Shown here in pieces: positions 8,374 through 14,475 of a DNA stretch of 14,475 nucleotides. The notes beneath the pieces are model-generated. The model was given only the letters and a program-made list of their open reading frames with translations, was not told where the DNA came from and made no database searches. The stretch comes from Lysobacterales bacterium (GTDB taxonomy: Bacteria; Pseudomonadota; Gammaproteobacteria; Xanthomonadales; Rhodanobacteraceae), in NCBI GenBank assembly GCA_013298265.1, contig JAAFHE010000020.1, forward strand, positions 1 to 14,475, written 5' to 3'. Within the stretch, counting starts at the first letter, position 1. Every line of letters starts with the position of its first letter. A program made the translations under genes and the position numbers.

Positions 8374-9294
8374 TCAGCGACGGCGCCGCTTCGCCGTGAC
8401 CGATGCCAGGGCCGTCGCGGCACTCTGCTGGGCGGCCTCTTCCAGCACCCAGGCGCGAAACGCGGCCACACCCGCATGCGCGACTGAACGCGGCGGATAG
8501 ACCAGATAATGCGACCACTCCGCGCGCAGTCGCTCGGGCACGAGCACGACAAGCCGCCCCGCATCGATATGCGGCTTGACCATGGTCAGCCGGCCCAGCG
8601 CCACGCCCAGGCCTTCGAGCGCGGCGCGGTGCAGCGTTTCGGTATCGCCGAAGCTGGCGACGTAGCGCTTGGGCGGCTGGCCGCCGAACTGCTGGAACCA
8701 GTCGGTCCAGCGATCGCCGGGATCGCCGAGCAGCGGCCAGCGCGCGAGGTCGGCCGCCTGCGGCGCACGGCTGCGACGCTTGAGCAGCAGCGGACTGGCG
8801 ACCGGAGTAATCCACTCGTGGAAAAGGTGGATCGCATCGAGTCCCGGCCACACGCCCGGACCGAAACGCAGCGCCGCGTCGAAGGGTTCCTTGGCGAAGT
8901 CGACGATGCCGGTACCCGAATGCAGATGCAGCTCGAGCTCGGGGTGGCGCGCGACGAAGCGCGGCAGGCGCGGCACCAGCCAGCCCGAGGCAACGGTCGG
9001 CATCATGCTCAGGCTCAGCACCTCATCCCGGCTTTGCCGTGGCGGTTGCATCGCGCGCTCGATCGCAGCCAGTGGAGCCTCGACCGCATCGCGCAGACGC
9101 TCGCCATCGACCGTCAGCGTAACGCCGCGCGGGCCGCGCACGAACAAGGTCTGCTGCAAGCGCTGCTCCAGCGCGCGGATCTGGTGGCTCAGCGCACTGA
9201 CGGTGAGATTCAACCGCAGCGCCGCACGCGACAGGTTGCGCTGCTGCGCGGCGAGCACGAAGGCCTGCAGGGCGGTCAGCGGCAATCGACTCAT
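8374..9294 (-). CDS. LysR family transcriptional regulator, GcvA-like, 306 aa
   Basis: The N-terminal 60 residues are a LysR winged helix-turn-helix: LTALQAFVLAAQQRNLSRAALRLNLTVSALSHQIRALEQRL, seen here at residues 6-46, then LFVRGPRGVTLT (50-61). Residues about 92-300 form the periplasmic-binding-protein-like effector domain (MMPTVASGWLVPRLPRF, HSGTGIVDFAKEPFDAALRFG, GVALGRLTMVKPHI). The spacing resembles the GcvA/AmpR subgroup. The effector and targets are unknown. LysR regulators often control a divergent neighbour, and the nearest divergent gene is the small one at 9688, about 390 bases away. The ATG at 9294 gives the family N-terminus. An in-frame upstream Met at 9507 would run through the hairpin-rich region and add 71 residues unlike any LysR. 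Confidence 0.9.
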   Translation of the reverse strand: MSRLPLTALQAFVLAAQQRNLSRAALRLNLTVSALSHQIRALEQRLQQTLFVRGPRGVTLTVDGERLRDAVEAPLAAIERAMQPPRQSRDEVLSLSMMPTVASGWLVPRLPRFVARHPELELHLHSGTGIVDFAKEPFDAALRFGPGVWPGLDAIHLFHEWITPVASPLLLKRRSRAPQAADLARWPLLGDPGDRWTDWFQQFGGQPPKRYVASFGDTETLHRAALEGLGVALGRLTMVKPHIDAGRLVVLVPERLRAEWSHYLVYPPRSVAHAGVAAFRAWVLEEAAQQSAATALASVTAKRRRR

Positions 9295-9687
9295 TGTGAA
9301 GTTTTGAACAAGGCTCTTGACTGCCGCTGTTGTGATCTGCACCAGATCCCCACAACTTCGTTGTGCTCCGTCGCAGCCACGACCGTATGGCCCTTGGGCC
9401 GCGCACCAGATCTCCACAACCCAGGCCAAACGCGTTGCGTTTGGCCGCCCGGCCCGTTGGGCGTTCAGAGTGATCAGAACCTGCGGTTCTGAGCGATCAC
9501 TCTTCACTCCCTTGACTCAAGGGGGCTCCAAGAGCAAATGCCCGCTTCGTTTTGCTCAGAGGCTGCATGTTGAGTTTTTCTCAAGCCTGGCTTGCAAAGA
9601 TGTCGCTTTTTCGGCGGCTGCGCCATCACTACGCTGTCAGGACATTGAAGCGGCGTCAACTCCCGCCGCCGCTACAGGAGAAACCGC
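9295..9687. repeat. Hairpin-rich intergenic region with direct repeat
   Basis: These 393 bases hold no gene that I can support. Between about 9329 and 9594 there is a chain of inverted repeats, mostly with 3-base loops: 9351-9365 (CACAAC, loop TTC), 9389-9400 (GGCCC arms), 9424-9446 (GGCCAAACGC, loop GTT), 9452-9462 (GCCC, loop GTT), 9467-9503 (15 pairs with a 4-base bulge, loop TGC), 9509-9523 (CCCTTG, loop ACT), 9532-9557 (GAGCAAA arms) and 9570-9594 (two overlapping small hairpins). An 18-base element, GCACCAGATCYCCACAAC, occurs at 9339-9356 and 9403-9420 with one mismatch. The density of symmetry is far above that of the other gaps here. It may be a dispersed repeat, a structured RNA or a set of protein-binding sites. 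Confidence 0.6.
9467..9503. repeat. Longest hairpin of the intergenic chain
   Basis: The left arm AGAGTGATCAGAACC (9467-9481) pairs across a TGC loop with GGTTCT (9485-9490) and GATCACTCT (9495-9503), leaving GAGC as a 4-base bulge. That gives fifteen base pairs. It lies mid-gap, not directly after a gene, so it is not an obvious terminator for LysR, which reads away from it. Confidence 0.6.
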
Positions 9688-9864
9688 ATGGCCTCGATCT
9701 GGAAAGACCTGTTGTTCCTGCATGGTCACTTCACGCGCCCGGAGGACGTGCTCGACACAGCCGTCGGCGAGGCAGCAAGCGCGATGGCACGGCGCGAGGC
9801 GACGCCGGCGCGCCAAGACTCGGCACACGACGATGCCGGCCTCGCCTGTGGCGGCTGCGGCTGA
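9688..9864 (+). CDS. Small protein of 58 aa with Cys-Gly-Gly-Cys-Gly C-terminus
   Basis: The frame begins MASIWKDLLFLHGHFTRPED and ends AGLACGGCG. An excellent ribosome binding site, AGGAG at 9676-9680, lies seven bases before the ATG; the whole gene is one open frame, and no other frame has a comparable start. The first 20 residues look like a short amphipathic or hydrophobic segment, the middle is Ala/Arg/Asp-rich, and the final CxxC could bind a metal or form a disulfide. It converges on aceK, with 6 bases between the two stop codons. A 7-bp inverted repeat (9649-9673) sits just before the ribosome binding site. I do not recognise the family, and no function should be assigned. The codon content and start signal make it more likely real than chance. 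Confidence 0.6.
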   Translation: MASIWKDLLFLHGHFTRPEDVLDTAVGEAASAMARREATPARQDSAHDDAGLACGGCG

Positions 9865-9870
9865 GCCGCC

Positions 9871-11610
9871 TCAGACCAGCGACTGCCCCAGCAGCGCAGC
9901 CGGATTGAGGCAGGCCGTCGGCGGATACGGCGGCACGTCGATGCGCTCGCCAGCGGCGATGCGCCGCTGCAGTTCCAGCCACCAGCCCACCTCGAAGATC
10001 TCGCCATGGCGTTCGAGCAGCGCCGCGCGCAGTTCGTCGTTAAGGCCTAGGAACCGCGGAAACTGCTGCGGGAACACATCGTGCGGGCCAACGTACCAGG
10101 CGTCGCTGCCGCTCGCGCCGTCGCCTTCGTCGTCGGGCAGGTCGCGGAAGCGGCATTCTTCGACGAGGCAGAGCTCGTCATAGTCGTAGAAGATCGCGCG
10201 GCCGTTGCGTGTGATGCCGAAATTCTTCAGCAGCAGGTCGCCGGCGAAGACATTGCTGCGCGCCAGATCGCGGATGGCCTGGCCGTAGTCGAGGATCGCG
10301 CGCACGGCGAGGTCCGCGCTGACTTCACGCAGGTAGAGGTTCAACGGCCGCAGACGCCGCTCGATGTAGCAGTGCGCGATGACGAGATCGTTGCCGTCCA
10401 CATACGCGCTTTCACGGCATTCACCGAGGATCTCCTTGAGCAGTGCCGGCGAGAAGCGGCGCTGCGGAAAGCGCAGGAAACGAAACTCCTGCGCATCGAC
10501 GAGACGGCCGGCACGGTCGCGGTGGAAGACCATGCGGTATTTCTCCATGACCTCCTCGCGCACGCTTTCCTTCGGAAACGCGAAGCGGTCGCGGATCAGT
10601 TTGAATACGAGCGGATACGACGGCAGCGTGAACACCAGCATGACCATTCCGCGCTCGCCGTCGGCATGCACGAGCTGCTCGTCCGGATCGCGCTGCAGGT
10701 GGCGGAAGAAATGCCGATAGCGCTCGGTCTTGCCCTGCTTGGCGCGACCGAGCACGGTGTAGAGCTCGTCGATCGGCTTGGACGGCAGCAAGGTGCGCAG
10801 GAACACGACCGCGTCGCCGACCGTGGCCAGATCCGCATGGAAATAGCTGCGCGTATAGCCGAACACCTGAGCGACGTGTTCGTGCTCGGTCAGCACCGCA
10901 TCGGCGCGGATGCCGCCGGGCTCGTGCACCAACGCAATCACGAGCGGCGCGATGCGTTCCGCACCGAACACACGGCCGACGAGATAGGCGCGCCGCTCGC
11001 GATAGAACACGGTCTGCAGCAGTTCGATCGCGCGCACCGGATCGCTGCCCCAGCTTTCCAGCCGCCGCGATACCGCCTCGGCGATGCGCATGGCGCAAAG
11101 CCCCGCATGCGCATAGGCCGCCGCGAACGGATAGTCGTCGAGAATGGCCTGGCAGACCCGCGCCAGATTGCTCCAGACGGCGTAACTGTGGCGCGCAACC
11201 GGATGTGTGATGCGGTCGGTCGGCTCTATGTCGAGCGCAACGAACTCGATCGCAGCGTCGACGCCGCGGGTCTTGAAGAAACGCCGCGTCTGCGTGTTGT
11301 ACCAGGTCTTGTAGAGCTCCTGATCGAGCAGGTTCGCGATCGTCTGGGCGTAGCAGACGTGGATCGCGCGCCAGAGCGCGCGGTCGTGCAACGCCGCGCC
11401 GAGATGGTCCTGGAGCTGGGCCGCCATGCGCTGCGCGCTCGCGTCATAGAGCTTGATACGCTCGACCGCGTCCTCGCTCGCACCGCTCCAGTCGCGCATC
11501 TCGAAGCGCCGCTGCGCGCGTTGCGTGATCTCGCGGAAGCGTGCGTGATAGTCCGCGAAACCGGCGTGGATCAGGGCGGCGGCGCTGGCCGCTACGGAAA
11601 TGTCGGTCAT
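9871..11610 (-). CDS. aceK: Isocitrate dehydrogenase kinase/phosphatase AceK, 579 aa
   Basis: AceK is a bifunctional cytoplasmic enzyme that phosphorylates, and so inactivates, isocitrate dehydrogenase, and also dephosphorylates it; it sets the split between the TCA cycle and the glyoxylate shunt. The N-terminal regulatory part contains [18 protein letters not shown]. The kinase core has [18 protein letters not shown] with ATP-contacting Lys 337, GDLLLKNFG with Asp 458 and Asn 463, and IFYDYDE with Asp 476 and Asp 478. These are one position off the E. coli numbering (Lys 336, Asp 457, Asn 462, Asp 475, Asp 477), and the total length matches E. coli's 578 residues, which supports the ATG at 11610. 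A longer start at 11673 is less likely. Its target gene icd lies about 2.1 kb upstream on the same strand, separated by the ATPase/HNH cassette. No aceA or aceB is in the window. Confidence 0.96.
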
Positions 11611-11636
11611 GGGAGCAAGCGCTGGGGATTTGCGCC

Positions 11637-11664
11637 AGTATCGCGCCTGCGCCGTTGCTGGCAA
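11637..11664 (-). promoter_or_regulatory. Possible sigma70-type promoter for aceK
   Basis: On the minus strand TTGCCA (11664-11659, five of six to consensus) is followed after 16 bases by GATACT (11642-11637, four of six), placing transcription start about 20 bases before the aceK ATG. Such matches occur by chance; the case rests on position, since aceK is otherwise cut off from icd by the cassette. Confidence 0.27.
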
Positions 11665-11706
11665 GCGGTGCACTGGCTGGCGAGTCGATCGCCGAGTCCC
11701 TGTAAT

Positions 11707-11810
11707 GCGGCATCATTTCGCCGGACAGGATGACCGGACCGGGATTGACCTCGTCAAGACCTGGGTAGTTGGGCACCGTGCCGCGCATGGCCTCGAATAC
11801 GGCGCGGCCG
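11707..11810 (-). pseudogene. Broken internal fragment of icd
   Basis: Read on the minus strand, this piece encodes [20 protein letters not shown] and then [17 protein letters not shown]. It aligns without gaps to 13919-14022 of the intact icd gene in this window: by eye 83 of 104 bases are identical (about 80%), and 25 of 36 residues. Similarity stops abruptly at both ends. On one side it ends 1-2 bases from the stop codon of the HNH gene; on the other it is lost where intact icd would read MGWTEAADA, and the last 52 codons of icd are absent. It has no start codon of its own and cannot make a working enzyme. The divergence shows that it is not a very recent duplication, or that it came from a related but different icd. 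It lies about 100 bases before aceK. Confidence 0.85.
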
Positions 11811-11811
11811 C

Positions 11812-12414
11812 TCAACGCAACATGTTCAACCTGACGGCCTCGGCATGAACGAACGGCGATTCACGGCGGAACTTGACTTCGCTGATGTCGCCGACAAGGT
11901 ATTCGTTGTAGTGGTTCTCGCGCAGCTTGCGGCAGTCCGCGCCATTGAGCTTTAGCCGGGCGATGGTGCTTTCAGCGACCGTGGCCATGCGCATGTCGAG
12001 GCCGGATCGCACGCTGATGCGGAAATCACCGAAGTTGAGTTCGAATGGCGAATCGGCCAGAGTGAAGGGGTCCAACACATCGGTAAAGTCGGATTTGCGA
12101 CCGTTCATCGTGCCGCAGATGAACCGATAGTTGCTCCACTCGTATGCAAGATCAATCCGCTGCGCCTTCGGCACAAAATGCTCGACAGTGGCGTTGCCGA
12201 CGACGAGTTCCACATACACGCAGACGTACGCACAGATCGACTGATACGCCGAACGCAATTCAGGCAGGCACCACGTCCAATAGCTTTCCAAGGTCACGCC
12301 AGCGGGTATCGGTTGCTGGGCATCTATCCCTTTTCTGGCGAGCCATCTCACGCCGGGCTGGCGAACATTGACATCGAATCCCGGCGGCTCCGGCTGCGGT
12401 GCGACCGGAATCAT
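11812..12414 (-). CDS. HNH-type nuclease, PtuB-like partner of the ATPase, 200 aa
   Basis: The protein has an HNH (beta-beta-alpha metal) nuclease core. VEHFVPKAQ (77-85) supplies Glu 78 and His 79, EWSNYRF (92-98) Asn 95, and [10 protein letters not shown] (100-109) Asn 104 and Lys 107. The segment before the core, [10 protein letters not shown] (60-69), sits where PtuB-like HNH proteins carry a CxxC-type zinc pair, but here the cysteines are three residues apart. The C-terminus ends [15 protein letters not shown] and looks complete. Its ATG overlaps the ATPase stop (ATGA), so the two are coupled and probably act together. In Septu systems the ATPase (PtuA) and an HNH nuclease (PtuB) form an anti-phage complex that cleaves nucleic acid. 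The DNA looks less GC-rich than its neighbours: about 52% in the 60 bases from 12121, against about 63% from 10681. Confidence 0.8.
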
Positions 12415-13691
12415 CGGCTGGCCACCAGCCCATGCTTTTCGCCGAAATGCCGCCAGCGCATCAGGAACACGTCGCCTTCCGCTGACACCGCGCGGAGTTC
12501 GTTGTCCACGGCGGCATAGGCTTCCACCGTGGGATTGGCTTCCGGTGCCATCAGCATCGCCGCTTTCTCACGGGCACGCTCGGCCGGGATCGACATCGCC
12601 TCCGGCAGGTCGAACACTTCGCTGGTCAGCCAGGCGCTGGCGTCCCCTTTTCGCTCGAACAGCATTGGCTGCAAACGGACCTTGCTACCGTCTGTTTTCC
12701 GCTCCAGATCGATAACGAACAGCCGGTCGCGTTGCTGGTCAAACTCTGGCTCCATCGAAGCCAACAGCAACGGCGCATGCGTCACACCGATTAGCTGCAC
12801 GCGGGCCTCTGCATTGAGGCTCCTGACTGCAGCGAGCAGGGAAGGCAGTATCGTGCGCTGCCAGCGCGGATGCAGATGTGCCTCGATCTCGTCGACCAGC
12901 ACTACCAGACGCTTGAACGGCTCGCTCCAGCCGCGCAGTCCGGCGGCACGCTGGTGTTCTGTCCAGGTCCAGGCAATCAAATAGGCGATCCCCAGGACAC
13001 GTCGAACCGCCTCGGAACATTGATGAGCCGGTGTTTCCGCATAACTGGTCCGCAGAGTCGGATAGTCCTGCACATCATCCGGCGTGAGCCGGCGCGGTTC
13101 TCCCGGCGTCAGCAACTCGTCGTCACTGGGCGAAAGCGCGCTCAACAATTTTCGTAACACATCGAATTCGGGTCGATTTTCCCGCTGCCACGAAACCCAG
13201 TCGCGGATGAGGCCATTGCACAGCGACTGTCCTTCGCGCGCGCCAGACAAGCCGTGCCACACCTGGGACTGGCTCATGAGGTAGGCGCGCGGCGACTCAC
13301 CCAAATCAGGGTCCAGCGAATCGCGGTAGTAGTTACGCGCCGGATCCCAGACTGAAAATCCGCCGTTGGCCCGTGCATAAATCACGAGCGCCGACATCGG
13401 AGGTCGGCCTTTGCTCCAGACCCAGCGTTGCTCGCCGAGAACATAACTGGCGCCGCGCTCCACGCCCTTGGCCGATTCACCATCGACAACAGATCCGACG
13501 CTGGCACTGCGCATTGGCCTGAGCGCTTCTTCGCCGGGCCAGGAATTGGTGAGTTGCCAGAACGCGAGATCCAGCACCAGCGACTTGCCGAGGCCATTGT
13601 CTCCGGTGATCAAATTCACGCGGTCGCCGAAATCCACTGACAGCGGGTCGATCGGGCCGATTCCCTCGGCAGATAGTCGCTTCAGTGTCAT
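12411..13691 (-). CDS. AAA/ABC-type ATPase, PtuA-like, 426 aa
   Basis: The N-terminus MTLKRLSAEGIGPIDPLSVDFGDRVNLITG leads to Walker A GDNGLGKS (30-37), as in SMC/RecF-like and OLD-like ATPases that sense nucleic acid. Walker B is RLVVLVDEIEAHLHPRWQ (261-278), with Asp 267 and Glu 268 followed by the LHP typical of this group. A switch His is in VTHAPLLLAS (303-312). SEAVRRVLGIAYLIAW (226-241) lies where the ABC signature helix is expected. No TOPRIM nuclease domain follows, unlike OLD proteins, so the nuclease is the separate HNH protein that overlaps it by 4 bases. AGGA eight bases before the ATG supports the start. The gene begins only about 30 bases past the icd terminator hairpin, leaving little room for its own promoter, so read-through from icd may drive it. 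Septu-like defence is the best current reading; no named family is certain. Confidence 0.82.
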   Translation of the reverse strand: MTLKRLSAEGIGPIDPLSVDFGDRVNLITGDNGLGKSLVLDLAFWQLTNSWPGEEALRPMRSASVGSVVDGESAKGVERGASYVLGEQRWVWSKGRPPMSALVIYARANGGFSVWDPARNYYRDSLDPDLGESPRAYLMSQSQVWHGLSGAREGQSLCNGLIRDWVSWQRENRPEFDVLRKLLSALSPSDDELLTPGEPRRLTPDDVQDYPTLRTSYAETPAHQCSEAVRRVLGIAYLIAWTWTEHQRAAGLRGWSEPFKRLVVLVDEIEAHLHPRWQRTILPSLLAAVRSLNAEARVQLIGVTHAPLLLASMEPEFDQQRDRLFVIDLERKTDGSKVRLQPMLFERKGDASAWLTSEVFDLPEAMSIPAERAREKAAMLMAPEANPTVEAYAAVDNELRAVSAEGDVFLMRWRHFGEKHGLVASR

Positions 13692-13722
13692 CGACGAATT
13701 CCTGTCCTGTCTTGTAGACGCC

Positions 13723-13751
13723 GCGCAGGACGGTCGATCACCGTCCTGCGC
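13723..13751 (-). terminator. icd: Hairpin terminator of icd
   Basis: A perfect 12-bp inverted repeat (GCGCAGGACGGT, 5-base loop, ACCGTCCTGCGC) begins 9 bases after the icd stop codon at 13761 and ends about 30 bases before the ATPase start. There is no long T-run. If it is efficient, the cassette needs its own promoter in a very short gap; if leaky, icd transcription feeds the cassette. Confidence 0.7.
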
Positions 13752-13760
13752 GCCGCGCTA

Positions 13761-14475
<715 letters not shown>

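Follow-up and report, generated by a model that had tools for sequence, protein, structure and literature searches.

The window analysed here, the whole stretch of 14,475 nt, is one complete contig (G000:C113) of a fragmented Lysobacterales assembly (833 contigs, 87.6% complete). Read along the minus strand, it carries icd, ptuA, ptuB, a fragment of icd, and aceK, in that order. The features that bear on the analysis are as follows:

13761..14474, minus strand: icd, the 3′ 237 codons, the gene being cut by the contig end (ORF; Pfam Iso_dh)
13723..13751, minus strand: perfect hairpin right after the icd stop (sequence; self-match of the gap)
12411..13691, minus strand: ptuA, the AAA ATPase of Septu, 426 aa (PADLOC PtuA, PDLC00307)
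11812..12414, minus strand: ptuB, the HNH-type Septu partner, 200 aa (PADLOC PtuB, PDLC00348), with a 4-nt overlap with ptuA
11695..11810, minus strand: decayed internal copy of icd, the counterpart of 13907-14022
11637..11664, minus strand: promoter-like site for aceK (TTGCCA-16-GATACT), about 30 bp beyond the fragment
9871..11610, minus strand: aceK (Pfam AceK_kinase and AceK_regulatory); the ORF opens at 11673

The icd protein of the window is 94%–98% identical to that of seven same-genus genomes, and the gene is to all appearances intact and canonical for the genus, its 5′ part lying off the contig. The hairpin that follows it could possibly mark the end of the icd transcript; it has no following T-run and does not figure in the terminator-scan list. 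At the other end of the locus, a comparison of starts places the likely start of aceK at the ATG at 11610. Scanning upstream of aceK for promoter-like sites gave one site against 0.4 expected, and its GATACT is visible at the same position upstream of aceK in three same-genus loci (L034, L035, and L036). A small plus-strand ORF (9688-9864; 58 aa compared) lies between aceK and a LysR gene, with a relative (55%) in the corresponding position in the same-genus genome G001.

The longest direct repeat in the window, as reported by a repeat finder, pairs 11695-11810 with 13907-14022 over 116 nt, ungapped, at 78% identity; a position-by-position count gives 91 of 116 identical bases and 25 mismatches. 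An earlier note on this DNA had described a diverged internal icd copy beside aceK, of 104 nt with 21 mismatches. Its observation is borne out: this is the same alignment, 12 nt shorter than the full repeat. Chance similarity is ruled out, since the runner-up placement of the fragment in an ungapped scan of the remaining window, on both strands, matches at only 55 of 116 positions, and the comparison with the window's own icd has E values of 6.6e-23 (blastn) and 2.3e-13 (tblastn). The fragment also turned up independently when the whole genome was searched with the icd protein (G000:C113:11696-11812, E = 3.6e-10). Its translation in the icd frame is 38 residues long. At E ≤ 0.01, 26 distinct sequences in PDB match this translation (best E = 1.9e-07), and all 26 are isocitrate dehydrogenases, which rules out LeuB or another dehydrogenase as the source, a possibility that the earlier note had named as refuting its reading.

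Both edges of the fragment can be placed closely. The ptuB stop codon occupies 11812-11814 and icd similarity begins at 11810, one base past the stop, in agreement with the distance of one to two bases from the stop of the HNH gene given before. The 3′ edge of similarity falls between 13907 and ~13919 in icd coordinates, so that 49–52 downstream icd codons are missing from the copy, a range that includes the 52 codons of the earlier claim. That the fragment is instead the truncated end of ptuB is unlikely: the window PtuB has the same C-terminal end as its Aeromonas relative, while two Azotobacter relatives, at 236 aa, are 36 aa longer. Most likely, then, the fragment starts one base past the natural ptuB stop.

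By its profile matches, the HNH cassette of the earlier note is the Septu pair PtuA and PtuB. Septu is an anti-phage system. PtuA matches the PADLOC profile PDLC00307 over residues 3–421 of 426 (E = 1.5e-142), with GDNGLGKS (the P-loop) and VDEIEAHLHP visible in the alignment, and PtuA sequences in PDB match too. PtuB matches PDLC00348 over profile positions 1–191 of 198 (E = 6.7e-64); a Pfam search with it gave no match. Five residues of PtuB that we take to be catalytic (H79, W93, N95, N104, and K107) are invariant in five aligned sequences, two pairs of which are near-identical. PtuB occurs in only two of 233 family genomes, the window genome included, and the other copy is 34% identical, a distribution that points to the module being an acquisition. 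Its closest relatives in the plasmid collection are 39%–43% identical, and no icd lies within 13 kb of the Aeromonas copy. Among phage records, no PtuB was found, and PtuA matched two records of phage KS9 at 24%.

The differences between the fragment and the window icd are distributed in a way that indicates loss of function. There are 11 differences among the 77 first and second codon positions, and at each of these 11 sites the 41 distinct alleles compared from the family and order all agree. Outside third positions, none of 115 other distinct icd alleles, very distant ones included, differs from the window icd at 11 or more sites. The fragment has thus fallen out of use, and it reads as a decayed, non-functional relic that has been under relaxed constraint compared with functional icd. 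Both ptuA and ptuB stand open directly beside this drifted DNA. This suggests that the pair has been retained by selection, provided that pair and fragment arrived together.

Third positions are informative about the source of the copy. They differ at 14 of 39 sites, compared with the 11 of 77 at the other positions (P = 0.015, Fisher's exact test), and at 13 of these 14 sites the base of the fragment is present among the 41 alleles. The pattern is suggestive only, over 39 sites that are not decisive, of a source allele that already differed from the present icd when decay set in. It bears on the possibility that the copy arose within the genome, by tandem duplication of icd-ptuAB in which the end of ptuB was joined into internal icd and most of the second copy was then deleted. 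Judged from the order of the parts, such a duplication would yield the exact junction between ptuB and internal icd with no foreign icd DNA, but it leaves the third-position divergence on the high side of what decay and drift would produce. If the copy came from the same genome, an excess of this size would have a probability of 0.21–0.44 at a decay of 0.24 and a change in the current copy of 0.07–0.14; with the latter held at 0.07, the probability is 0.015 at a decay of 0.143 and 0.089 at a decay of 0.20. The excess thus appears compatible with a same-genome origin given faster decay, and not decisive against it, and we hold tandem duplication within the genome to be improbable overall.

Comparison with the icd genes of relatives did not lead to a source either. 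Against 20 relatives, the fragment is 73%–79% identical and the current icd segment 83%–97%, contrary to the expectation in the earlier note that the scar would be closer to relatives' icd than the current gene is. A DNA search found no close donor within the family: of 233 genomes, 43 yielded matches, with top identities of 80% over the whole 116 nt and 82% over 101 nt. G001 and G011 escaped this search; by direct comparison, their icd is 78% identical to the fragment. The comparison also bears on the parallel drawn in the earlier note, in which the incoming DNA supplies a replacement icd 3′ end. Compared with its four closest relatives, the window icd has an identity of 0.909–0.918 upstream of the junction and 0.927–0.938 in the tail; the last 81 nt are less alike (0.84–0.90), and so is one stretch upstream of the junction. 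Affinity is steady across the junction, so a foreign icd tail is unsupported, and a congeneric donor would be invisible in such a comparison.

The fragment itself appears to be confined to this locus. A tblastn search found no icd piece downstream of icd in the 20 relatives, one of which (G006) offers just 181 nt. Across 120 loci with >100 nt of downstream sequence, the window included, only the window has an icd piece at E ≤ 1e-4 (in 14 of these loci, that sequence is shorter than 2 kb). We take as chance the blastn pieces of 16–39 nt in seven relatives and a single reverse match in L095 (35%, E = 0.04). In G003, G006, and G007, where icd and aceK are far apart or on two contigs, no fragment lies beside aceK; the interval is incomplete in G006, where two contigs end, and split between contigs in G007. 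With no comparable piece at the other icd loci examined, the proposal that the fragment marks the aceK-side edge of inserted DNA stands, and among the same-genus loci examined (with the G006 and G007 intervals incomplete or split) there is no relative that has the fragment without the cassette.

The earlier note had also predicted that icd lies directly next to aceK in relatives. Outside the genus this is the usual arrangement: in 40 distinct loci where aceK lies no more than 8 kb from icd, the gap is <400 bp in 27 and longer in 13. Within the genus the layout differs: all same-genus loci among the 40 belong to the longer-gap group, with a genus minimum of 711 bp. The icd-aceK intervals of five same-genus genomes are the following:

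G005: 711 bp, with a PemK/MazF-like gene
G002: 2016 bp, with a PemK-like gene, 84% identical to that of G005 over 454 nt
G001: 1789 bp, with an AAA protein and a 198-aa ORF of no family
G004: 4109 bp, with a Pnkp-type ligase
G003: about 16 kb

In G001 (L036, 7644-9270), the AAA protein has mad3 and PDC-M25A among its best PADLOC matches and the 198-aa ORF has no PADLOC or Pfam match; together they are a candidate two-gene defence module. The ligase of G004 (PF16542; L033, 7493-9319) lies between icd and aceK. Several large ORFs in the interval of G003 (L207; about 820–910 aa) show DNA likeness to each other, and ORFs of similar size are seen in L206 (G006) and L047.

In another family of the order, G047 and its congener G056 carry a different Septu, whose start lies 9 nt past the icd stop (L041, 7308-9384, and L042, 7264-9337, respectively; that of G056 is assigned by its likeness to G047). 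For a wider view, the first ORF downstream of icd was called with a home-made gene caller in 114 distinct loci out of 121, in locus sets that overlap in part. This gave 108 first ORFs, of which 21 are aceK (11–217 nt after icd) and were left out. Of the remaining 87, at least three match PtuA models and at least four match AriA (25 of the 119 families listed). We take the PtuA-model members to be those of the window, G047, and G056, to which AriA adds the G001 protein. Defence modules have thus entered this site on more than one occasion, without crowding it. The best reading of these data is that small modules enter the icd-aceK interval, and that the fragment is the dead junction relic of one such event.

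The varied contents of the interval also fit a history in which the fragment is older than Septu, having been left by an earlier occupant, with ptuAB arriving later. Fragment and module would then have separate ages, as the 11 changes at 77 constrained positions beside two open ptu frames might indicate. Against this, the position of the fragment one base past the ptuB stop suggests a common junction, and no same-genus locus examined has the fragment without ptuAB (G006 being incomplete and G007 split). We regard so early an origin of the fragment as very unlikely.

The explanation we favour, and consider probable, is that the decayed internal icd duplicate is the aceK-side junction of the Septu module, formed through non-site-specific recombination. 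Direct observation covers the homology, the position and the decay of the fragment, the open genes of the module, the absence of the fragment from the other loci examined, and the variability of the interval. The fragment is a single case in these data, in which the product and not the route is observed. Non-site-specific recombination would have used or captured icd DNA at the junction, in the window lineage or in a donor, so that the donor end was joined inside a copy of icd. This could have happened by transformation-like uptake, the donor DNA joining by homology at one end and illegitimately at the other, or by a tandem-type join. The remainder of the icd copy, up to the aceK promoter, would then have been lost. 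With the promoter-like site ~30 bp past the fragment, and partly repeated in three same-genus loci, the deletion seems to have spared the sequence that aceK probably requires. The module may have been kept for phage defence, while the fragment, having no role, would drift. As for intermediates, no intact second icd copy was found, nor any donor in which an icd piece follows ptuAB. Recombination joining the module end to internal icd, with later decay and deletion, remains the most economical account of the locus.

The earlier note had explained the scar differently, through a parallel with phage 21 and e14 and entry of an element at the 3′ part of icd. Phage 21 integrates in icd. The e14 element of E. 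coli K-12 begins at a point 165 bp from the icd end. Its displaced piece, icdC, corresponds to the terminal 165 bp of icd, as far as the stop, and is identical to the icd tail at 153 of 165 bases. The e14 boundary, at residue 363 of E. coli Icd, maps to 13925 in the window. The icd counterpart of the scar starts at 14022, 97 bp upstream of this boundary and not at the residue 362–363 start of a displaced piece; its other end corresponds to 13907, which leaves it 49 codons away from the icd stop, where a displaced piece would finish. Being internal and lacking the gene end, the scar departs from the parallel in both respects, and the entry model is left unsupported.

The e14 geometry is common in viral contigs too. 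We compiled 82 provirus loci bearing an icd tail: 79 come from the 80 best of 350 hits to the E. coli tail, two were found with the window tail, and the last is L229. The set includes a few complete icd genes or genes cut by a contig end, and some loci share a contig, as do L229 and L310. Residue 362 is where 60 of the 91 icd stretches in these loci begin. Every one of the 91 extends to residue 416, a result that is partly forced by choosing the loci by their tails. In a further 51 provirus loci chosen by residues 305–361, 52 of 52 icd stretches reach residue 416, many of them probably being the host gene beside the provirus, and none of these 52 stretches is an internal icd piece like the scar. 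Both sets represent E. coli-like icd only. An exact run of 22 nt (13922-13943) was considered as a retained core and rejected, because such a run is expected in about one in 10 such alignments (a hand estimate) and the likeness of e14 icd and icdC begins 3′ of it.

The entry model can be spelled out as site-specific integration. An integrase-bearing element could have entered at ~14022, supplying the icd 3′ end of a congener, with the integrase and the last 49 codons of the old copy deleted later. Replacement of the icd end would survive the affinity comparison if the donor was a close congener, and the attachment point could be other than that of e14. Proviruses with displaced icd tails do exist in viral contigs, and defence genes lie beside such tails. 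In L229 (1-6206; IMGVR_UViG_2852342079_000004), a provirus end carries two tandem displaced icd tails, the second of 165 bp, and ~490 bp beyond the second tail is a retron I-A set comprising RT, PtuA, and PtuB; 11 of the 82 provirus loci match mcrA, the gene found in e14. These cases show that defence genes, PtuA-PtuB included, can be carried into icd by proviruses. The internal position of the scar, 97 bp from the e14 boundary and with the gene end missing, counts against such an entry, as do the starts at residue 362 in 60 of 91 provirus stretches, the reach to residue 416 in all 52 of those chosen independently, and the absence of an affinity shift in the icd tail. In addition, in the ORF list the 2.2 kb separating the repeats is taken up by ptuA and ptuB, the only genes identified there, and the window icd region matched no provirus in a low-sensitivity search, the window tail matching two at 69%. 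We therefore judge entry by an integrase-bearing element to be rather unlikely.

The locus adds to icd integration an insertion scar that lies outside the e14 geometry, and it offers a concrete place for studying how small, apparently integrase-less defence modules move. Within a single order, Septu forms unrelated to each other have on two occasions come to lie immediately after icd. It is a speculative and on present evidence doubtful extension that the interval after icd serves in Lysobacterales as an exchange site for small defence modules, with icd homology as the anchor and the module locking itself in place. Were this true, recombination between the two icd copies would remove ptuAB and the working icd 3′ end together, so that losing Septu by that route would cost the cell its isocitrate dehydrogenase.

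As a Septu system, the module is conventional: it has near full-length PADLOC matches for PtuA and PtuB in two overlapping genes, no functional difference from Septu is seen in the pair, and it is the setting between icd and aceK that stands out. With e14 the locus shares inserted DNA at the 3′ end of icd, a duplicate icd piece on the far side, and a defence gene next to that piece, where e14 has the restriction gene mcrA beside icdC. It differs in that icdC reaches the stop codon whereas the scar is internal, has no stop, and is decayed, at 78% identity, and in that only two genes separate the repeats. The retron I-A set of L229 resembles the window in having PtuA-PtuB near a displaced icd tail; it differs in including an RT and, on our reading, in the presence of phage tail-type genes. 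Among the listed ORFs of the window no RT stood out, and no Rfam match was found in 9000-14475. The parallel with L229 and e14 raises the standing of integration as a model without rescuing its geometry in the window. The scar is real and was correctly spotted, and its cause was partly misread: it is ordinary as a kind, and unlike the classic phage scar.
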